Made by a program: the position numbers and the translations under genes. From NCBI GenBank assembly GCA_905478765.1, contig CAJQJY010000018.1:1-35098 (forward strand): a stretch of 35,098 nucleotides of DNA. The letters run 5' to 3'. The stretch comes from an uncultured Flavobacteriales bacterium. Its GTDB lineage: Bacteria > Bacteroidota > Bacteroidia > Flavobacteriales > BACL11. The stretch's first letter is position 1. Each line of letters starts with the position of its first letter. The notes beneath the pieces were generated by a model. The model worked only from the letters and a program-made list of their open reading frames with translations. It was not told where the DNA came from and ran no database searches. Of this stretch, positions 1-9,167 are shown piece by piece.

Positions 1-1537
1 TAAAAACTCCATTTGCATTAATTGTTACTGTTACATCTGTTCCTAGTAATGTTGTAACTACTTGATTATTTGACAACATCCCTGACATTGCAGTTGACCC
101 AACAACATGGTGCTTTAATATGTCTGTAAATTGTGGTATGTCATTAAATAATGCCGTAACTGCTCCCGCTGGAAGTGAATTAAATGCAGCATCTGTTGGT
201 GCAAATAATGTAAGCGTACCTGGATCAGACAAAACAACATCTAAGGCACACGCATCAATAGCAACCTTTAAAGTAGTGTGATCATTAGAATTAGATACAA
301 TATCATAAATTGAATTTGAAGCATTATTTCCTGTCTTCCAACTAGCACCATCTACATCAGAAAATTGACCTCCTGAAGATAGAACCGTACCGTTTCCATC
401 AGTTACAGTAAAAGAACCAACACCATATCCTGCATCTATTCCATCTCCGTAAGAATCATAAATTGTAAATGTATAACAAGTATTAGATGCTAAAGTTCCA
501 GAAACAGGTGTTTCAGTAGTTGTTCCTGCCGCACCTAAATTAGAATAAGGACCTCCTGATAAAACTACTGCGCCATTTACATCAGTAATATCCCATGTTG
601 TTTCAGATCCATAAGCATCAGTAACAATTTGAACAGTTACAAAAGTGTTAGTGTTTTGAGTTGCTAGTTCAACATTAAATACAACTGTTGGATTATTAGA
701 TGGATCTGCATCAACTGTTCCATTTGGATGAGCAGTATTGATAGCTACAACATCATTACTTGCTAATCCTGTTAATGCAGGTAATGTAATATTATCTGTA
801 GCATATGTTGCTAAGTTGCCAGTCCATGGCGTAGTATACATTATGTTTCCATTAACTGAAACTTCAATAGATAATGAAGTAAGATTAACTAAGCCATAAT
901 TTTGAATCATAATTTCAGGCACTAGATCTCCCTCACATGTTAAAGTTTCACCAGCATAATCAAATATTCTCGCATCAAAAAGATGGATTGCAGGAGCTGG
1001 GCATGCGCTTACTAAAGAATAAGGACTAGCGGCCTGTCCGCATTCAGTTAATATTCTGTCAGGGCAGATTTGGTAAACAGTTGGCCAGTAACCAATTTGA
1101 TAATCTTGAGTAACTTGTGCAGGATTTGACCCAGAATATGTAGGTAATATTGGATATGGAGTACCAGTTATCCAATCACCTTGAGAATTCCCTCCTCCTT
1201 GTAGTTCTGCTAAACTTCCTCCGTCACCTTCAATGAAAAATACCATAACATCATCTGTTGTATTTGCATTGACATTTGGCATTCCAGCAGGACCATGGTT
1301 CATATATAAATCATCAAAAGCACCAGAAGTATGATAGTTCCAACATGGCGGGCACCATATTGCTGAGAATTTTAGAAAAACAGTATAGCCATTATCTAAT
1401 AGGCTATATAAATTGTGACTTGTACCATCTAAGTCCGTTAAAGTAAAATCTGGAGCTACTGATCCATCAGTTAATTGCGCTTGAGTATTTTTGAATGATA
1501 ATAGAGTAACAATTAAAAATAGTAGAATTTTTTTCAT
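1..1537 (-). CDS. Secreted thioredoxin-like/fasciclin (FAS1) fusion protein, 3' end cut by window
   Basis: My reading of the reverse strand gives an open frame of about 512 codons from an ATG at 1537 to the window edge, with no stop, so the C-terminus is missing. It starts with a lipid-free signal peptide (MKKILLFLIVTLLSF…TQAQ). A TlpA/AhpC-type redoxin domain follows (LTDGSVAPDFTLTDLDG) with an intact CPPC active site near residues 63-66 (AIWCPPCWNYH). The middle part looks like beta-sandwich modules (a CARDB-like stretch, then a 'CYTFTIYDSYGDGI' module). The last visible part is a clear FAS1 domain (TLKVAIDACAL, LTLFAPTDAAFNSLP, ILKHHVVG). The redox motif suggests thiol-disulfide chemistry outside the cytoplasm, and FAS1 domains usually mediate adhesion. 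A T9SS sorting tail would be expected in the missing part; this is inference. Confidence 0.88.
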   Translation of the reverse strand, partial: MKKILLFLIVTLLSFKNTQAQLTDGSVAPDFTLTDLDGTSHNLYSLLDNGYTVFLKFSAIWCPPCWNYHTSGAFDDLYMNHGPAGMPNVNANTTDDVMVFFIEGDGGSLAELQGGGNSQGDWITGTPYPILPTYSGSNPAQVTQDYQIGYWPTVYQICPDRILTECGQAASPYSLVSACPAPAIHLFDARIFDYAGETLTCEGDLVPEIMIQNYGLVNLTSLSIEVSVNGNIMYTTPWTGNLATYATDNITLPALTGLASNDVVAINTAHPNGTVDADPSNNPTVVFNVELATQNTNTFVTVQIVTDAYGSETTWDITDVNGAVVLSGGPYSNLGAAGTTTETPVSGTLASNTCYTFTIYDSYGDGIDAGYGVGSFTVTDGNGTVLSSGGQFSDVDGASWKTGNNASNSIYDIVSNSNDHTTLKVAIDACALDVVLSDPGTLTLFAPTDAAFNSLPAGAVTALFNDIPQFTDILKHHVVGSTAMSGMLSNNQVVTTLLGTDVTVTINANGVF

Positions 1538-1565
1538 AATAGATTTTTTTGAATAATTTATACAG

Positions 1566-1593
1566 CAAAAATAAAAAAAAATATGAGCTGCAA
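1566..1593 (-). promoter_or_regulatory. Candidate Bacteroidota promoter for the thioredoxin-FAS1 gene
   Basis: On the minus strand TTG (1591-1593) is followed by a 17-nt spacer and then TATTTTTG (1566-1573). This matches the Bacteroidota housekeeping pattern TTG-N17-23-TAnnTTTG. Transcription would start about 20 nt before the ATG at 1537. The match is by eye only. Confidence 0.55.
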
Positions 1594-1735
1594 GATTATA
1601 ATATCTAATTATATCACTAGATTATGGTGAACTTTTAAACTAAAAATTGCACCGCTAATCAATCTACTAAAACAAGCTTAAGTAATTTTACTTAAACGTC
1701 TGAATAATGAGTTGTTTTTTTTAAAATAATTTATT
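1590..1735 (+). repeat. Intergenic repeat family, copy A
   Basis: Degenerate copy of a ~150-bp repeat best seen at 3804-3950. Shared strings include CACTAGATTA, AACTAAAA, TTGCACCGCTAA, CAATCTACTAAA and a T/A-rich end. It lies between the divergent genes starting at 1537 and 1769, so it overlaps their promoter region. This copy has only one TTGCACC element where copy B has two. Confidence 0.6.
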
Positions 1736-1768
1736 TTTATTAATATTGCAATAATTAAATATACTAAA

Positions 1769-2380
1769 ATGAAATCCTACAAAACACTATTGATAATATT
1801 TTTATTACTTAATACTTCAATTTTTGCTCAGAAATATTCAACACTGAAAATTGGCCAAGAAATGCCTATGCAAAATGTTGAAATATTTGACATTAACGAT
1901 CAGATTACCACACTTAGTAAAAACCTCAAAAAAAATGGATTACTAGTTGTTTTTACTTCAAATTCATGTCCATTTGTTGTAATGTGGGAAGATAGATATA
2001 AATTACTTGAAGAAAAATGTAAGAATAGTGAAATCGGTATGGTATATATAAACTCAAATCAAGCAAAAAGAGACGGTGATGATTCTGTTAAAGAAATGAA
2101 GAATCATTCTATTAAAATGGGCTATACCTATCCATATTTGATTGATGAAAACAGTAAAATTGCAAATTCATTTGGAGCAAAAACAACGCCTCACATTTTC
2201 TTATTAAACAACAAAAGAATATTAGTATATAAAGGAGCAATTGATGATAATTATAAATCAATTAATGATGTTACTAAAAACTACTTATTAGATGCTATGC
2301 AAGAAATTAGTATTCAAAAAAATGTTAGTGTTACTGAAACAAAAGCAGTTGGTTGTAGTATTAAAAGAATTAGAAAATAA
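1769..2380 (+). CDS. Secreted thioredoxin-fold redoxin (AhpC/TSA-like)
   Basis: A 203-residue protein with a signal peptide (residues 1-20, ending SIFAQ). The fold is that of the AhpC/TSA-thioredoxin superfamily: a beta strand GLLVVFTSNSCPFV with Cys67 at the active-site turn, MWEDRY in the following helix, and the cis-proline loop KTTPHIFLL (Pro141). The active site reads SCPFV, so the second Cys of a CxxC pair is absent. Other cysteines are C84 and C196, the latter in a C-terminal VGCSIK motif that is common in this Bacteroidota subgroup and could resolve a disulfide. Peroxidase or thiol-reductase activity cannot be separated from sequence. It is the only plus-strand gene I accept in the window and is divergent from another secreted redoxin. 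Confidence 0.85.
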   Translation: MKSYKTLLIIFLLLNTSIFAQKYSTLKIGQEMPMQNVEIFDINDQITTLSKNLKKNGLLVVFTSNSCPFVVMWEDRYKLLEEKCKNSEIGMVYINSNQAKRDGDDSVKEMKNHSIKMGYTYPYLIDENSKIANSFGAKTTPHIFLLNNKRILVYKGAIDDNYKSINDVTKNYLLDAMQEISIQKNVSVTETKAVGCSIKRIRK

Positions 2381-2481
2381 AGATAAATAGGTCACTCTCT
2401 ATTTTATAAAGAAAAACTACGCACATAAAGTTCAAGCTAATTAAATCATTATTAAGAAATTAATAATAACATTAAGTGGGT

Positions 2482-3732
2482 TTACTCAATATCATCTGAT
2501 AAATCAAGGTTTTTAAAATCAGGGAATTTAAGATTTGTAAATCCAACAGAAAATAAAGTCATAATACCACCAAAAATAACTGCCGGTACTGTTCCCATTA
2601 ATTTTGCAGTTAGACCACTTTCAAAGGCTCCTAACTCATTTGATGATCCAATAAATATTGAATTTACAGAAGCGACTCTTCCTCTAAATTCATCAGGAGT
2701 TTTTAATTGAAGAATTGTTTGTCTAATAATCATTGATATGCCATCAGTTAGGCCATATAAAAAGAGTGCAAATAGTGACAAATAAAACATAGAAGAGATT
2801 CCAAATATTATTATTGAAATTCCAAAACAGAAAATAGCAACTAGTAATTTCATACCTGCATTTTTAGTTACAGGAATATATGCAGATACAAACATTATTA
2901 TTAGAGCACCAACAGCTGGTGCTGCCCGCAACATACCAAAGCCTTCTGGACCAACATTTAAAATTTCCTGGGCAAATATTGGAAGCAAAGCTATTGCACC
3001 ACCAAATAATACCGCTACCATATCTAAAGTTATTGCAACTAGTATTAATTTTGTTTTAAATACAAATGATAAACCTGCTTTAAGACTATCCATAATAGGC
3101 TCTCCTATCTTAGGATTCAAGATTGGTTTTTTTTCAATAAACAAAGTTAATATCATAGAAAAAAATACAGAAAGAAACACAAAACCCATAGATACATGAA
3201 TACCAAACCAAGCAATTGAAAATCCAGCAAAAGCTGGACCTAAAACAGAAGCAAATTGCCAAGTGGAACTACTCCAAGAAGCAGCATTTGGATAAGCCTT
3301 TTTAGAAACAATTAATGCTACTAGTGAGAAAATAATAGGGCCAAAAAAAGCACGAATAAATCCTCCCAAGAAAACTAATAGATATATGCTAATTAATATT
3401 TGTTTTGATGTATAGTTTAAATAAGCATAATTACTAGTAATAGAAAAAAAAGCAAACGATACAAATAGAAAAGCAGTGATTGTAAGTATAAACAATTTTT
3501 TTTTCTCATTTTGATCAACAATATGACCTGCAAAAAGTGACATAGAAATAGCTGGTATTATTTCAACGAGTCCTATTAAACCAAGAGAAAGAGGATCTTT
3601 AGTTAAATTATAAACCTCCCATTCAATTATTATAAATTGCATTGACCAAGCCAATACAAGTAAAAATCGAATTAATAGAAAAAAATTAAACTCTTTAAAA
3701 CGTAATGCAGCATAAGGATCATGTTTACTCAT
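2482..3732 (-). CDS. MFS transporter (EntS/MFS_3-like)
   Basis: A 416-residue inner-membrane protein with about 12 hydrophobic segments, the usual length for the major facilitator superfamily. The N-terminus YAALRFKEFNFFLLIRF, the TM2-3 loop FAGHIVDQNEKKK, and FRGRVASVNSIFIGSSNELGAFESG in the second half are typical of the EntS/MFS_3 group of putative exporters. The substrate cannot be told; siderophore or drug export is only a family-based guess. It is convergent with the redoxin gene (101-bp gap) and stands alone, with no promoter box I could identify and no clear terminator. The short downstream gap contains GTCACTCTCTATTTTATAAA (2392-2411), which resembles the end of the dispersed repeat. 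Confidence 0.85.
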   Translation of the reverse strand: MSKHDPYAALRFKEFNFFLLIRFLLVLAWSMQFIIIEWEVYNLTKDPLSLGLIGLVEIIPAISMSLFAGHIVDQNEKKKLFILTITAFLFVSFAFFSITSNYAYLNYTSKQILISIYLLVFLGGFIRAFFGPIIFSLVALIVSKKAYPNAASWSSSTWQFASVLGPAFAGFSIAWFGIHVSMGFVFLSVFFSMILTLFIEKKPILNPKIGEPIMDSLKAGLSFVFKTKLILVAITLDMVAVLFGGAIALLPIFAQEILNVGPEGFGMLRAAPAVGALIIMFVSAYIPVTKNAGMKLLVAIFCFGISIIIFGISSMFYLSLFALFLYGLTDGISMIIRQTILQLKTPDEFRGRVASVNSIFIGSSNELGAFESGLTAKLMGTVPAVIFGGIMTLFSVGFTNLKFPDFKNLDLSDDIE

Positions 3733-3803
3733 CTAAAAAAAATATTTCGTAATAATACAGAAAATTTGTGTTAATATTAAAAAGAATAGTCGCGATGTAG
3801 CAG

Positions 3804-3950
3804 GATTACAACCTCTACTCTTTACACTAGATTACAGCAAGCTCAAAAACTAAAATTTGCACCACTTTTTGCACCGCTAACCAATCTACTAAATCAAATT
3901 TAAGAAATTAATTTGATTATCTGAGTAATCACTTATTTTATAAAAAATTA
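3804..3950 (+). repeat. Intergenic repeat family, copy B (best preserved)
   Basis: About 147 bp used here as the reference copy. Features in order: GATTACAACCTCTAC, CACTAGATTACAG, CTAAAATTTGCACCAC then a second TTGCACCGC, CCAATCTACTAAA, TTAATTTGATTATCTGAG, and ACTTATTTTATAAAAAATTA. It has no coding potential. The sequence just before it (3788-3815) looks like the reverse complement of a tRNA 3' end, which may hint at an old integration site. Confidence 0.65.
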
Positions 3951-3986
3951 AATTTGAATTCGAGATCAGAAAGGCCCACCAAAAAG

Positions 3987-4010
3987 AAACCCACTCGTTT
4001 GAGTGGGTTT
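3987..4010 (-). terminator. Hairpin terminator of the GH16 gene
   Basis: Perfect 10-bp stem AAACCCACTC / GAGTGGGTTT with a 4-nt loop, located 6 nt after the stop codon of the minus-strand gene ending at 4016. On the minus strand it is followed by a T-rich run (CTTTTT). Almost the same hairpin ends the next gene upstream. Confidence 0.85.
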
Positions 4011-4015
4011 TTTAT

Positions 4016-4990
4016 TTATTCAAGAATTATTTTCTTCTCAACCGTTCCATCATCATAGATGTAAAAAAGAGGTTGATTGTTTAGCTGTTCACTTTCTCTA
4101 CCTAAAACATCAATAATCCTAATAACTTTGGTATTCTTAACTTCTTCTATAACTTCACTCATACCACCTGTTTTCCACACCCTAATATAATCAACATAAG
4201 CACTAGTTAAATATCCAATTGGTTGACTTGTAAAATAATTTCCTGACAAACCAAAACTTGCTCCATCTGAAAGGTAAATATATTCATCATTTTGTGGAAT
4301 CCACATTTTATTAGCATAAACAACTTTAAGGCTATTATCATAATATATTTTGATAGAATCTGCAGTCCAGAAAACCCCCCATATATGAAAATTATTATGA
4401 ATTCCAGGTGTGTTATACTGCCTAGTGTCTGCCTGATGACTTGCTCCATAACCATCAATATGTATTACTGATTTTGTGTAATCCCCTAACCATGCAGATT
4501 CAAAAACATCAATTTCTGCCCCATCATTACCAGTGCCATCAATCTGAGACATTGCATCCCCTTGAAACCAAAAAGCAGTATGAGTCCCTTTAGCAGCCTC
4601 TGCAATTTTCATTCGAACCTCAAAATATCCATATGTTGTTTCAAACTTATTATTTGAATTTACCGCTCCACAATACATAGTATTTGTATCTTCTTTTATT
4701 ACATCTAAAACAAGATATCCAGAATCCAAAGAAACATTTTCCTCTTTCCAAAACCAGTCGTCAATACCTAAGTCTGGTCTGGCAGCTCTGCTTGAAGGGC
4801 TTTCTAATTTACTCCACTTATTTGAGTTTAAACTATCTTGATTAAACTCATCTGAAAAATGAAGGACCCAATTTGAATTGATTTGAGAATTAACAGGAAA
4901 AGTGTTTGGAGGAGTATCAGGATCAATAAACTGAGCATTAACAAATAAAGAAAATCCAATAAAAAGAAAGAATAGTAAAAACCTTTTCAT
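4016..4990 (-). CDS. Secreted GH16-family glycoside hydrolase (laminarinase-like)
   Basis: A 324-residue protein: signal peptide 1-19 (FSLFVNAQ), then a GH16 jelly-roll catalytic domain (about 40-275). The catalytic motif is E159-I-D161-V-F-E164, fitting ExDxxE with nucleophile E159 and acid/base E164. Supporting signatures are HFSDEFN, YGYFEVRMKI, HTAFWFQGD and YVDYIRVWK. The family hydrolyses beta-1,3/1,4-glucans or galactans such as laminarin; the exact substrate is not visible, and no SusCD pair or other carbohydrate genes lie nearby. The C-terminal tail (residues ~288-324, VIRIIDVLGRE…FYIYDDGTVEKKIILE) is shared with the neighbouring LRR protein and is probably a non-canonical T9SS sorting tail. 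A TAAGTTTG box (4995-5002) lies only 4 nt before the ATG. Confidence 0.9.
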   Translation of the reverse strand: MKRFLLFFLFIGFSLFVNAQFIDPDTPPNTFPVNSQINSNWVLHFSDEFNQDSLNSNKWSKLESPSSRAARPDLGIDDWFWKEENVSLDSGYLVLDVIKEDTNTMYCGAVNSNNKFETTYGYFEVRMKIAEAAKGTHTAFWFQGDAMSQIDGTGNDGAEIDVFESAWLGDYTKSVIHIDGYGASHQADTRQYNTPGIHNNFHIWGVFWTADSIKIYYDNSLKVVYANKMWIPQNDEYIYLSDGASFGLSGNYFTSQPIGYLTSAYVDYIRVWKTGGMSEVIEEVKNTKVIRIIDVLGRESEQLNNQPLFYIYDDGTVEKKIILE

Positions 4991-5008
4991 AAAGCAAACT
5001 TACTTAAT

Positions 5009-5052
5009 AATTTTCTAAAAAAGTTCGAAACTGGGACCGAGAGGCCCACCAA
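5009..5052 (+). repeat. Short repeat, copy 1 (TTCTAAAAAAGTTCGAA … GGCCCACCAA)
   Basis: This 44-bp element matches 5930-5974: both read TTTTCTAAAAAAGTTCGAA, a variable stretch, then AGGCCCACCAA. Its GGCCCACCAA end also recurs at 3973-3982. Read on the minus strand it would encode GGPLGPSFELF followed by a stop. It lies between the terminator of the LRR gene and the start of the GH16 gene. Confidence 0.6.
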
Positions 5053-5057
5053 TAAAG

Positions 5058-5079
5058 AACCCACTCAATTGAGTGGGTT
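5058..5079 (-). terminator. Hairpin terminator of the LRR gene
   Basis: Perfect palindrome AACCCACTCAATTGAGTGGGTT placed 6 nt after the stop of the gene ending at 5085. It is nearly identical to the hairpin at 3987-4010 and has the same distance from its stop codon. Confidence 0.8.
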
Positions 5080-5084
5080 TATGT

Positions 5085-5849
5085 TTATTCAAGAATTATT
5101 CTTTTCTCTACTGTTCCATCATTATAGATGTAAAAGAGTGGTTGATTAGTTTGTTTTGTTTCTCTTCCTAATAGGTCTGTTACTTTAAGAAGTTCTTTGT
5201 TTGTAGTGTTCTCTTGTATTGAGGATATTCCACTACAGTTAGTACTATAGTACTGATAAGTTGTGTCAAGAAATTCAATAAAATTATTTTGCCAACAAGA
5301 TAAATCAGTTACTTCAATACAATTTAGATTTGGATTTTCACTAAAGTCAGATTCATTAATTTGTAGAGCACACGAAATTTGAGATAAGTTTAAAGATGTT
5401 AACTGATTATTATTGCAAACCAAACTAATTAAAGATGTGTTTTGGCTTACATCAAGATTAGCAAGTTGATTATTCCAAGCATACAAACCCTCCAGAGCAA
5501 TAGCACCATTTAGATTAAGGCTTGTTAACTGATTATCATAACAACTCAACCAGGTTAATGATATATTTTGGCTAGTATTAAGTGTAGAAATCTGATTATT
5601 TTGACAGTATAAACTTGTTAAATTTATAAAATATTCTATTCCTGTTAAATCAGTAATATTCATATTTTCACACCAAATAGTTCCATTAAATGTATTTGCC
5701 TCACTTATTTGAATTTCAGTATCTCCATTTGTATTAATTAAAGTCTCTCCAACTAAATATGTTTTAAAGTTAGAATCAGGTATGTTTACATTCTGCCCAA
5801 AACCAATCAGAGGCAAACAAAGTAATATTAGTAAAATCTTTTTCATCAT
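5085..5849 (-). CDS. Secreted leucine-rich-repeat protein with T9SS-like tail
   Basis: A 254-residue protein: signal peptide (1-18, IGFGQ), then about five leucine-rich repeats of roughly 21 residues between residues 60 and 185 of the Bacteroidota type (L.SLYCQNNQISTLN, LTWLSCYDNQLTSLNL, LEGLYAWNNQLANLD, LISLVCNNNQLTSLN). The C-terminal tail (KVTDLLGRET…FYIYNDGTVEKRIILE) is close to the GH16 protein's tail, at DNA level as well. LRRs of this type bind protein or glycan partners, but no target can be named. The first ATG is doubled (MMKK); the second M could equally be used. A TAnnTTTG-like box with one mismatch (5881-5888) and a 7-bp inverted repeat (5897-5918) lie upstream. Confidence 0.82.
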   Translation of the reverse strand: MMKKILLILLCLPLIGFGQNVNIPDSNFKTYLVGETLINTNGDTEIQISEANTFNGTIWCENMNITDLTGIEYFINLTSLYCQNNQISTLNTSQNISLTWLSCYDNQLTSLNLNGAIALEGLYAWNNQLANLDVSQNTSLISLVCNNNQLTSLNLSQISCALQINESDFSENPNLNCIEVTDLSCWQNNFIEFLDTTYQYYSTNCSGISSIQENTTNKELLKVTDLLGRETKQTNQPLFYIYNDGTVEKRIILE

Positions 5850-5929
5850 TTTTTTTAATTAATAATATGCAATTATGCGGCAAATATCTAAAATTCACTT
5901 CACGTCTAAGGGTGAAGTTTCTAATTATT

Positions 5930-5974
5930 TTAATTTTCTAAAAAAGTTCGAACTTAGCACCGTAAGGCCCACCA
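5930..5974 (+). repeat. Short repeat, copy 2 (TTCTAAAAAAGTTCGAA … GGCCCACCAA)
   Basis: Second copy of the 44-bp element at 5009-5052. On the minus strand an open stretch of more than 40 codons ends here with FGGPYGAKFELF and a stop at 5943-5945, which could be the last strand of a lost outer-membrane barrel gene. On the plus strand TTCGAAC followed by GGCCCACCA resembles a tRNA T-loop and CCA end. I cannot decide between these readings. Confidence 0.5.
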
Positions 5975-6074
5975 AAAGTAAAGTTAGAATCACTTTTATC
6001 GTAAAGAATACTTCTAATATCTAAAGGATTTACTAACAAGAAATTTATTGATATATTCAATTTGTTTTGATTAT

Positions 6075-6857
6075 TTATTTTTTTTGAGTAATAATAGGTT
6101 TTCCATTTAATGCTTGAACTAGCGTTGTTGTTGCTAAAATTCCGTAAAATATTGAAATAATAATTGTTGTTTTTGTGCTTTTAAAAAAATAGAATGAAAG
6201 CAATGGTAGTAACTGTAAAGCATGCATACCTATAAAGTGTGAAACTCTTAAATCGCCTACAGTTTTACTCCAGCCAATAATCCACCAATTCGAGTTATCA
6301 TTTAGCGCACCAACGCTATGACTCATCTTAGAACTCATTAAAGCTCCTTCAAATGAAAAAACAACAAAAATCAATATCCCTAAACGAATGGACCAAACAT
6401 AATAAATTGGTAAATTAGGAAAGGACTGTGAAAAAAAGAGGAACCCGATATAAGCAGTATAAAGTGTAACAATGACAGCTGCTAAACCCATTAACGAATA
6501 CAATACAGAATAAAGTGGTGTATTAAAGTTATAATGTGATAATTGTCCTTTTGATGCTTGAAATGCGATATAGATAAGCTCAAAACCAAACAATATAATA
6601 ACTACCCAATTAAAGGGTACTACATTAAAATTTGGTAAATAATGACAGTACCAAAGCATTGTCCAAGAAAATAATGCTATTGAAATAGAAAACTTAAAGG
6701 GCTTAAACCAAGCGTTTATTGCATGAACCTGGGTAGTAGTAAGTTTAGTTAAAACAATAAATATTATAGAAAGAGTTAAACAAAACAAACCGAAATAAAA
6801 TAAGGATTCGTTCCGAATTTTTAATTCCTTAATAAAACATAATACACCTTCAATCAT
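6075..6857 (-). CDS. Conserved-type multi-pass membrane protein, function unknown
   Basis: I do not recognise a named family. The protein has about 7-8 hydrophobic segments, with well-defined polar motifs between them: INAWFKPFKFSISIALFSW, QASKGQLSHYNFNTP, SFEGALMSSKMSHSVG and GDLRVSHFIGMHALQLLP. Histidines and arginines near membrane ends could bind a cofactor, but this is speculation. The frame is open up to an ATG at 6896, which would overlap the upstream gene by 32 nt. I prefer the ATG at 6857 (14th residue of the longer frame) because it lies 7 nt after the stop of the upstream gene and the extra residues only come from the overlap. It is the second gene of a two-gene unit with the protein ending at 6865. 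Confidence 0.75.
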   Translation of the reverse strand: MIEGVLCFIKELKIRNESLFYFGLFCLTLSIIFIVLTKLTTTQVHAINAWFKPFKFSISIALFSWTMLWYCHYLPNFNVVPFNWVVIILFGFELIYIAFQASKGQLSHYNFNTPLYSVLYSLMGLAAVIVTLYTAYIGFLFFSQSFPNLPIYYVWSIRLGILIFVVFSFEGALMSSKMSHSVGALNDNSNWWIIGWSKTVGDLRVSHFIGMHALQLLPLLSFYFFKSTKTTIIISIFYGILATTTLVQALNGKPIITQKK

Positions 6858-6864
6858 TAACTGA

Positions 6865-7563
6865 TTATTTTTTATTAATCGTAAATTTTGGTACAAAATA
6901 ATTTAAGCAATAAAGCATTGCTGCGTATGTAAAAATTAGAGTAGGCATATTGGTATTAAATCCTAAATCAAATTCTGGAATACTAAATAACTCTCTAAAT
7001 GATTTTGTTGCAATCAGTAGCATGAAAAAGATTCCATAAGCAAAGACAGAAATAATTGCAATTCTATTTTTTGTTGTTCTAATAATGCCTTTTTTTGCTT
7101 CTTCTGCAAAGAAGTACCATAATGCTCCAATACTGAATAAAGCTTCTATTAAAATAGCTAAATAAGCATTAGAGGCATATAACCCAAGACCGGCTTCCAT
7201 TGTGTCTGCTCCAAAAATATGGTGCGTATGACCTGAAAAGAAATCTAAAACAAAATGGATTGAAACTAACACCACACTTACTAAGCCTATTTTTGTGCTT
7301 TTGAATAATAGTTTCCCAATTACGAACACAATTGCCAACCAAAATATTTGAGGTAACAAATCGTGGCTGTACAACATATCTACTACCATATTACTTAAAG
7401 TAGCATCAAAGGCATCACTTGGACTGGTTGGTTCCAGTTCTAAATAATGAAAGATAAACCACAAGAAATCTTGTAATTGTGATATAATTAGAAAATAAAG
7501 TAACTCACCTTTTGGGAATTTTTGTTTTGCTATTAATGCGGTTGTAAAATGTCCTGCTAACAT
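6865..7563 (-). CDS. Membrane protein resembling YdjM/YbcI-type putative metal-dependent hydrolases
   Basis: A 232-residue protein with about 6 membrane segments. It begins LAGHFTTALIAKQKFPKG and carries His/Asp-rich stretches in the order QLQDFLWF, DMLYSHDLLPQ and HFVLDFFSGHTHHIFG. This pattern resembles the inner-membrane putative metal-dependent hydrolases of the YdjM/YbcI (DUF457) group, where such His/Asp residues may bind metal. The similarity is by motif, so the assignment is moderate. It leads a two-gene unit with the membrane protein downstream. A strong TATCTTTG promoter element and a 25-bp palindrome lie 29-63 nt upstream of the ATG, suggesting control by a repressor or activator that is not encoded in this window. 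Confidence 0.7.
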   Translation of the reverse strand: MLAGHFTTALIAKQKFPKGELLYFLIISQLQDFLWFIFHYLELEPTSPSDAFDATLSNMVVDMLYSHDLLPQIFWLAIVFVIGKLLFKSTKIGLVSVVLVSIHFVLDFFSGHTHHIFGADTMEAGLGLYASNAYLAILIEALFSIGALWYFFAEEAKKGIIRTTKNRIAIISVFAYGIFFMLLIATKSFRELFSIPEFDLGFNTNMPTLIFTYAAMLYCLNYFVPKFTINKK

Positions 7564-7591
7564 AATTTCTGTAATTTTTTATTATTGAGTG

Positions 7592-7599
7592 CAAAGATA
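7592..7599 (-). promoter_or_regulatory. -7 promoter element TATCTTTG
   Basis: Exact match to the Bacteroidota TAnnTTTG element on the minus strand, followed by C as is common. It sits 29 nt before the ATG at 7563. No TTG is present at the usual upstream distance; that position is taken by the palindrome at 7602-7626. Confidence 0.6.
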
Positions 7600-7601
7600 T
7601 A

Positions 7602-7626
7602 TATTACTATTGAATTAATAGTAATA
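7602..7626. promoter_or_regulatory. Operator-like palindrome (10-bp arms, 5-bp spacer)
   Basis: TATTACTATT and AATAGTAATA form perfect 10-bp inverted arms around GAATT. The site begins 2 bp upstream of the TATCTTTG element, so a bound dimeric regulator would sit over the -33 region. The dyad size fits MarR-, PadR-, TetR- or ArsR-type dimers; the actual regulator is unknown. Confidence 0.55.
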
Positions 7627-7712
7627 ATACGTGAGATGATAAAGATATTTGTTTTGACTACGCAAACTCTACTACCCTTGATGTTAAAGGCGATAAATGA
7701 TCTTTGTTAATA

Positions 7713-7775
7713 ATTAGCGGTAAGATCATTAAACATAAAAAATTTAATTGATTTTCAGAGTAAGGAGTTGTTTTT
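7713..7775 (+). repeat. Intergenic repeat family, copy E (partial)
   Basis: Partial copy: AGCGGTAAGATCATTAAA, AAATTTAATTGATTTTC, AGAGTAAGGAGTTGTTTTT line up with the second half of copy B and with the end of copy A (AATGAGTTGTTTTTTTT). It lies in the 353-bp gap between the umuC stop and the membrane-protein operon. Confidence 0.45.
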
Positions 7776-7835
7776 AAAAATAACCTTAACTATCCTCCAA
7801 ATCCTGGTCCTGTACTCATAAGTCCAATTAATAAG

Positions 7836-7890
7836 CATCAAGAATTAATTTGATTTTCTGAGTAGTCTTTTATTTTATAAAATAATTATT
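7836..7890 (+). repeat. Intergenic repeat family, copy F (3' half)
   Basis: AGAATTAATTTGATTTTCTGAG followed by TTATTTTATAAAATAATTA is close to the 3' half of copy B (AAATTAATTTGATTATCTGAG, ACTTATTTTATAAAAAATTA). It ends 27 bp before the stop codon of umuC. The rest of the 7564-7916 gap shows only the promoter region and unassigned AT-rich DNA. Confidence 0.6.
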
Positions 7891-7916
7891 ATATAGCTAT
7901 TCTATTGCCTGCTGAT

Positions 7917-9167
7917 CTAAATTATTACCTCTAAAATATCAGTAAAACGTGTAGTATAGCAAGGAGATAGTTTTTCTTGTTTCAATTTCCACTTCCTACC
8001 AGTCCCCTGTACGGCTAAGTAAACTTTATTCTTTCCCATCAAAGAATTAATTTTATCGACTACTCTATTAATATTCTTACGTTTTTTTCTATCTAAAGCA
8101 TCAAAAATACTTAATTGTATTTCCTCCTGAGGAACAGCTCTTCCAACAATTACTCCTGCTTTCTTATAAATGTATTCATCTCTATAAATACTTTCTAAAC
8201 CTTTAATAGCAATTTTAACTATCTCCATACTATCATTAGTAGGAACTTCTAATTGAATCATTTTATAAGGGTTATATTGTTTAGCTTGTGGCTTAAAAGG
8301 ATTAGTGCTTAAAAAAACACTAACAGTAGTGCAACAACTTTTTTCTTTCCTTAATTTAGTAGCACAAGTATTAGCGTGAGAACCTATCGCTTCTTTTAAT
8401 TTTGAGAGTTCTTTAATCTCAGTTCCAAAGGAACGAGCAGTACAGATATTCTTTTTTCTCTTTCTTGTTACTTCAATAGGATAACATACCTCTCCATAAA
8501 GTTCCTTTTGCAACCTAACTCCATTTACTGATAAGTGTCTTCTTATCCAATTACTATCACATTCTCTGAATTGTAAAGCAGTATGAATACCCACAGCCTT
8601 TAACTTCTTGGTATTCTTTCTGCCAATTCCCCATAAATCCTCAACCTTAAACACATTTAAAGCCCTTTTGATTAAATCTTCGTCATCAAACATAAAAACA
8701 CCTGCCTTAGTATATTTCTTTGCTATGTGCCCTGCAACTTTTGCTAAAACCTTAGTTGGGGCAATACCAACTGACACAGGAATACCAGTCCATTGCTGTA
8801 CTTTTTTCTTTATAGCAACTCCCCTTTCTTTGGATGCGTAATCCGTAAGATCCAAAAAGGCTTCATCAATAGAATAGATTTCTATCTTATCCACCTCAGC
8901 ACTCATTACATTCATTACCCTTTTGGATAAATCACCATACAATGCAAAATTGGTAGAAAATACATTAATCTTATATTTTTCAATAAGATTTTTGAGTTTA
9001 AAAGCAGGTTCTCCCATCTTTATCCCTAATGCTTTTGCTTCATTACTTCTTGCAATTACACAACCATCATTATTAGAAAGTACTATAACAGGCTTATTCT
9101 CAATCTTTGGATTAAATACTCTTTCACAAGAGGCATAGAAATTATTACAATCAACCAAAGCAATCAT
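7917..9167 (-). CDS. umuC: UmuC-like Y-family DNA polymerase (Pol V catalytic subunit)
   Basis: A 416-residue protein matching UmuC over its full length. The palm/finger motifs are intact: [16 protein letters not shown] with catalytic D6, [26 protein letters not shown], and [10 protein letters not shown] with catalytic D101-E102. A helix-hairpin-helix region ([16 protein letters not shown]) and the little-finger region follow ([17 protein letters not shown]). The enzyme performs error-prone translesion synthesis on damaged DNA together with processed UmuD. It starts one nucleotide after the umuD stop, so the two are translated as a unit. Confidence 0.96.

Follow-up and report, generated by a model that had tools for sequence, protein, structure and literature searches.

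Integrons are the best-known stockpile of single genes in ordered arrays. Tycheposons are larger elements with tyrosine recombinases (set apart here by description), while SCC elements are large, carry ccr and occupy one site (rlmH). Closest to the system described here, however, are the ssrA-specific genomic islands of Dehalococcoides, in which the gene of DsiB, a large CcrB-like serine recombinase (about 540 aa), overlaps the 3' end of the tmRNA gene, and tandem islands, many without a recombinase of their own, are bounded by short repeats of the tmRNA end; 31 such islands of several kb have been described, all downstream of ssrA (PMC3146451). In small-genome uncultured Flavobacteriales, presumably marine to judge from isolate names, we find arrays that are probably integron-like: single-gene cassettes, with a shared DNA block as the junction between them, which a serine recombinase and not IntI would move.

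As in Dehalococcoides, a serine recombinase lies over the 3' end of an RNA gene, tandem elements carry end repeats and many are recombinase-free. Unlike those islands, the arrays hold cassettes by the dozen, most of them of one gene (median 1.25 kb) and supplied with promoter and terminator, occupy tRNA-Val, tmRNA and other sites in one genome, and have a longer conserved junction. By analogy, then, the present system would work in the manner of Dehalococcoides but be sized and laid out as an integron is. Same-strand arrays of single genes, a repeated site between cassettes and shuffled order are shared with integrons and CALIN; unlike these, there is no IntI over cut-off and no GTTRRRY core, the promoter lies inside the cassettes and the core equals a tRNA 3' end. 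Exchange of accessory genes at tRNAs in small marine genomes is common to tycheposons, other tRNA-anchored marine islands and the arrays. SCC (CcrA/CcrB) has in common with them a serine recombinase, a conserved gene whose 3' end is the place of insertion, and tandem composite elements (some Ccr details after PMC3146451), but here the elements are single-gene, mostly recombinase-free and spread over several tRNA-type sites. A literature search, with most subscription journals and preprints outside its coverage, found no described serine-recombinase cassette array of this kind.

In the proposed scheme a cassette would start at TGGTGGG and lead past a conserved 5' segment (GCCTCTCGGTCC..TTCGAAC.., promoter) and one or a few genes to a bidirectional terminator and the next TGGTGG, and cassettes would be gained, lost and re-ordered through site-specific recombination at this core. 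The core equals the sequence with which tRNA and tmRNA genes end (CCCACCA / CTCCACCA), and such genes would anchor the arrays. The most likely enzyme is a large serine recombinase whose gene, here running into tRNA-Val, would itself be a cassette of like kind. A T9SS-like tail is a frequent feature of the cargo.

The stretch of DNA analysed (the window, 35,098 nt) is the entire contig C18 of a 1.61-Mb genome, G000, that is 98.6% complete, and includes two cassettes that are described first. The cargo of cassette 1 is a leucine-rich-repeat (LRR) protein of 254 aa (5085..5849; PF12799, E=1e-9) and that of cassette 2 a GH16 family glycosidase of 324 aa (4016..4990; PF00722, E=1.5e-15); the two genes stand in tandem on the minus strand, each ending in a short T9SS-like tail whose codons, also on the minus strand, lie at 5088..5201 (NKELLKVTDLLGRETKQTNQPLFYIYNDGTVEKRIILE; identified in the tail inventory of the genome) and 4019..4138 (KNTKVIRIIDVLGRESEQLNNQPLFYIYDDGTVEKKIILE). 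Upstream of the tail they are unrelated in sequence. Their 3' ends align in DNA from about 40 codons before the stop, through the stop and a hairpin, to TTGGTGGGCC, and the window has three copies of GGCCCACC where 0.10 would be expected, a number reached in none of 100 shuffles; alignment and count together bear out the earlier note, which had described a near-identical run of tail, stop, terminator and GGTGGGCC block behind both genes. Terminator hairpins occupy 5057..5080 in cassette 1 and 3984..4013 at the 3' end of cassette 2; the stem AACCCACTC/GAGTGGGTT occurs 12 times in the genome, exactly or with one mismatch.

The attachment core TTGGTGGGCC lies on the minus strand at 3973..3982 (3' end of cassette 2, where break-points of shared cassettes map), at 5043..5052 (the border of cassettes 1 and 2, placed by repeat counts and break-point mapping) and at 5966..5975 (5' end of cassette 1). 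Read on the plus strand, the first two are GGCCCACCAA, which occurs six times in the genome against none for its reversed control. The third copy, absent from the earlier note, has no AACCCACTC hairpin on its upstream side and carries a 45-nt extension (TAATTTTCTAAAAAAGTTCGAA..GGCCCACCAA, plus strand; repeat D7, 87% identical); because it lies upstream of the LRR gene, the block stands between genes and not merely behind them. Repeat D7 likewise defines the conserved 5' ends of cassette 1 (5931..5965, minus strand, TTACGGTGCTAAGTTCGAACTTTTTTAGAAAATTA) and cassette 2 (5008..5042, minus strand, CTCTCGGTCCCAGTTTCGAACTTTTTTAGAAAATTA), which are 87% identical, and a segment of the cassette 2 type is conserved in the 160 blocks examined below. 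A Bacteroidetes-type -7 promoter box, TAAGTTTG, follows on the minus strand at 4995..5002, 4 nt before the GH16 start codon. Such a box (TAnnTTTG) was found 35..85 nt beyond the core in 38 of 129 blocks, compared with 6 in shuffles, and in 27 of 30 cases an ATG came 4 nt after it, a spacing that suggests leaderless or nearly leaderless messages here and at other blocks. The first 143 nt of the LRR cassette (5825-5965; promoter region and first signal-peptide codons) are 84-91% identical in DNA to unrelated cassettes (L113, L126, L123, L177), so that unrelated genes have a common 5' leader besides the 3' tail. Upstream, the cassette pair is bordered by a minus-strand gene (6075..6896) with 94% DNA identity over 602 bp to a locus in a relative (G002:C1:252.6k), where the counterpart gene is followed by a remnant cassette and then tRNA-Val.

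The genome as a whole has about 15 copies of the GGTGGGCC block, those outside the fetched regions being taken from search tables. A 79-nt block consensus used as probe matched 27 of 40 relatives, with up to 38 matches in one genome, running on one strand at a spacing of 0.6-3 kb; in the class at large the block is nearly missing, with matches in 3 of 395 genomes, G000 included, of which the other two match only hairpin and core. Among the 160 blocks collected in 47 fetched regions, all 111 neighbouring pairs (those within 5 kb) share a strand, at a median spacing of 1,251 bp and with one ORF in most intervals, and the ORFs of 108 cassettes form 65 protein clusters, of which 44 have a single member. 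Same-strand repeats with variable genes between them, a hallmark of integron membership, are thus present. Judged by eye from translations, the cargo includes acetyltransferases, HxlR, Crp, short-chain dehydrogenase, MsrA and secreted proteins. The largest ORF between blocks is reversed in 23 of 108 cases; a block that merely marked terminators or promoters would track gene orientation, which the block strand does not. The genomes named in this work are metagenome assemblies, a point that counts against our explanation; they include G013 (CALSQD01, uncultured Flavobacteriales AC_MB403), G001 (CAJQLK01) and G022 (JACNLP01, NIOZ-UU86). Several contigs of G000 (among C2, C10, C13, C17, C19 and C20) end within or near block repeats, and the 5.9-kb C20 consists largely of cassettes; assembly gaps at these repeats may conceal further parts of the arrays.

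Cassettes do not keep their neighbours. One-sided homology is common among block pairs (49 upstream and 54 downstream, 103 in all, pairs being non-independent since one cassette may enter several) and two-sided homology occurs in 6, and the same cassette is found again beside different neighbours. Two blocks of G002 (C3:125187 and C1:258191) have the same 700 bp upstream, at 100% identity, but unlike sequences downstream. A 2,482-bp cassette containing the end of a recombinase gene and two further genes (by eye homoserine kinase and threonine synthase) lies within an array in G002 and beside tRNA-Val in G007, with 4 mismatches, no gaps and 99.84% identity, and changes over at TGGTGG on both ends: on the left the neighbours differ up to TTTTGGTGG, and on the right ..GATTCCGCTTTGGTGGGC gives way to CTCTCGGTCC in the array or AATGAGGGACTCGAACCCCC at tRNA-Val. 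Indels distorted a pooled likelihood fit of the break-point, and for that reason it was placed from this example and the cleanest pairs, whose intervals (-4..6, 0..10, -3..7 and, three times, -2..8) intersect at 0..+6, that is TGGTGGG, the reverse complement of tRNA and tmRNA 3' ends. Averaged over pairs, identity stays above baseline to about -7 where the upstream side is shared and from about +10 where the downstream side is (core 0..5), so that the profile changes over between -6 and +10. Not all break-points are clean, which weighs against our explanation: taken one by one, the intervals include -8..+10 in 12 of 19 and in 8 of 18 cases; a break at TGGTGGG is a rule with exceptions, and some pairs break elsewhere.

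Those exceptions lend some colour to homologous recombination between the repeated 80-bp blocks, together with shared tails and signal peptides and perhaps with DNA from transformation, as a sufficient cause without a dedicated enzyme. The blocks are about 80-97% alike and may have the length that RecA needs, unrelated genes have tails and 5' leaders in common too, and arrays exist without an intact recombinase. Yet cassettes and the recombinase element end at tRNA-Val and tmRNA right sides that have only TGGTGG(G) in common with arrays; at the right end of the 2,482-bp cassette the partners have only about 8 bp in common, not enough for homologous exchange. Strict one-strand polarity and break-points in the core are also a better match to site-specific exchange, and overall we regard purely homologous shuffling as unlikely.

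The earlier note had instead placed recombination at the border of the tail, supposing that new secreted domains capture tail and terminator as one 3' module. Much of its description has held. The module does recur, with the tail in 27 genes of the genome and hairpin plus GGTGG behind about 9 of them, and DNA identity does end at the domain border, the GH16 cassette sharing only its last ~130-150 nt with dozens of other cassettes; this likeness of tail DNA between unrelated domains is what speaks for capture, which could act alongside cassette movement. Tail and block nevertheless prove separable, because no more than 34 of 111 cassettes carry the tail in their largest ORF and, on reading the DNA behind each stop, some two thirds of the tail genes in the genome have no block; there are also blocks with no preceding tail gene (C2:121341, C2:122061, C13:130 and window 5931). 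Since the mapped exchange point, TGGTGGG, moreover lies downstream of the terminator and not at the tail border, capture of a tail module is quite an unlikely account of the arrays, although extra tail swapping between cassettes by ordinary homologous recombination is possible. The cassette arrangement of the earlier note stands, then, with a different moving unit: the whole gene with promoter and terminator in place of tail plus terminator.

The tail is a feature of the cargo, found in about a third of cassettes, and is probably a passenger in the system; it may be a short sorting signal. Its profile, from 25 sequences, reads FYIYxDGTVEKK with D10 and G13 invariant. No match to the T9SS type A sorting domain (TIGR04183) was found in 5 whole proteins, and among the 25 tails none passed the curated cut-off and one gave a weak match (E=0.062), in keeping with the earlier view that the tail is neither type A nor type B; a profile comparison with type A tails was insignificant. 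A T9SS is likely in the genome because the window encodes PorP/SprF plus type A and B cargo. The genes in question span 10133-31385, where a PorP/SprF-OmpA protein is followed by four very long adhesin-type proteins with type A or B T9SS tails.

What would move the cassettes is best approached from the RNA genes that the arrays adjoin. Arrays with the core TGGTGG abut tRNA-Val and tmRNA: in the genome of the window a block (C17:1647-1681) runs into the tmRNA 3' end, and arrays adjoin tmRNA or tRNA-Val in G008, G013 and G002. In six genomes tRNA-Val is directly followed by the cassette terminator and TTTTTGGTGGGC; in six others, G000 included, it is followed by another terminator, AAAGCGGAATC..GATTCCGCTTT, which belongs to the gene of a large serine recombinase. 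In G000 this protein has 536 aa (C19:26322-27932 = L201:6323-7933; PF00239 and PF07508), and its gene reads into the end of tRNA-Val (SALVGNEGLEPPTSSV). The overlap with tRNA-Val recurs in G013, while close relatives of the recombinase (92-97%) read into tmRNA in G022 and G001, and more distant homologues across the class (mostly 38-48%) overlap, in 14 of 19 instances, the 3' end of a tRNA or tmRNA with their C-terminus. The right end of the recombinase element, ..GATTCCGCTTT|GGTGG, has one joining base for tRNA-Val, tmRNA and cassette 5' ends, being joined to the last of these in G013, G002, G008 and G016, and in G013 the C-terminal half of the recombinase closes an array as its final cassette, with a normal cassette terminator on one side and tRNA-Val on the other. 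Resolvase and recombinase domains, a gene overlapping the end of its target RNA, and tandem elements bounded by target-end repeats, the features of DsiB/Ccr-type islands, are all found. These common junctions, together with the overlap with RNA ends, make the serine recombinase the best enzyme candidate. As far as sequence can establish them, array polarity, neighbour shuffling, a common break-point and a junction shared by recombinase element, cassettes, tRNA-Val and tmRNA are in place; we infer that the candidate recombinase performs the exchange, and cassettes would pass through circular intermediates and between cells. Against its assignment, the intact gene is sporadic and lacking from several genomes that have arrays: it is complete in G000 and G022 and partial or remnant in G001, G013 and others, and G012 (96% complete) has arrays and no PF07508 match. 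An IS200/IS605-like mechanism was also considered because hairpins flank the core.

Tyrosine recombinases near some arrays, such as that on C2 of G000, likewise weigh against our explanation, and one of them could move the cassettes: either the Arm-DNA-bind_5 type by the array at C2:116.5 kb, 3.6 kb away, or XerC/XerD. tRNA 3' ends are the classical targets of tyrosine integrases, and in G006, G003, G008 and G004 this tRNA-Val is also contested by other elements. The C2:116.5 kb gene, however, adjoins tRNA-Pro and not a block, G012, G014 and G019 yield only Xer- or IntI-type matches, and no tyrosine recombinase has been seen with a cassette-like end sequence, unlike the serine recombinase, so that we hold this alternative to be very improbable. 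A classical integron, with the blocks as attC sites and an IntI now mostly lost, is scarcely credible: single-gene cassettes, same-strand arrays and a minority of reversed genes do resemble one, and G019 has an IntI-like gene flanked by uvrC and lysS, of which G013 and G012 keep remnants, but TIGR02249 passed its cut-off in none of 16 genomes (scored per piece; the G005 and G019 genes might pass if scored whole), the IntI-like gene is not beside an array, the attC recombination point GTTRRRY is absent at the mapped break-points, which fall in TGGTGGG, and cassettes bear promoters and end at tRNA genes. The IntI-like tyrosine recombinase occupies L169:11129-11950 (G019), with a remnant at L171:8271-8564 (G013) and a fragment at L150:1393-1773 (G012); no cassette array adjoins the locus in G019 or G013.

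Other identities for the block or its carrier were rejected. No Rfam family reached the gathering score in window 1400-8000, and ARAGORN finds zero RNA genes in the window, which disposes of a known RNA and of a remnant of tRNA or tmRNA. The 5' segment does look like the 3' end of a tRNA in reverse, with TCGAA at 23 nt from the core in 88 of 131 blocks, but by inspection the T-stem is absent. The hairpin alone is no marker, its stem being present in unrelated phages and plasmids as well, and a phage or plasmid carrier was set aside, the junction pattern being absent from viral contigs and phage and plasmid records matching only hairpin fragments.

Taken further, serine-recombinase cassettes with tRNA/tmRNA 3'-end anchors would be a second independent invention of the integron principle, its multi-locus, self-expressed single-gene arrays serving as a main route for the renewal of secreted (T9SS) and other accessory genes in small marine Flavobacteriales, a broader reading towards which we incline by a little. 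If true, such a counterpart of the integron would explain the fast-changing set of surface and secreted proteins in small ocean genomes, offer a defined attachment site for gene delivery and render the spread of single genes in uncultured plankton testable; it would also mean that the most variable genes are the ones lost from view where such assemblies break.

Other mobile elements share this neighbourhood. At the tRNA-Val 3' end sit elements of at least two further kinds, with end sequences of their own (L230 in G008; L236 in G004; L225, L229 and L232 in G006, G003 and G001), so that this end seems to be the object of competition among several integrases. Beside tRNA-Leu, in L202, L203, L204 and L205 (G013, G011, G024 and G019), lies another large serine recombinase; two of these loci also have a small resolvase-like gene close by, a DsiB/DsiA-like layout. 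Within the window a second repeat family, GTAGCAGGATTACAACC..TTGCACCGCTAAYCAATCTACTAAA, occurs at 1590-1719, 3790-3950, 7725-7783 and 7827-7885, one copy following the core at 3973 (the start of the next cassette), and is also present in G012 (L150); its members resemble a reversed tRNA-Pro 3' end, and a tyrosine recombinase adjoins tRNA-Pro at C2:116.5 kb of the same genome.
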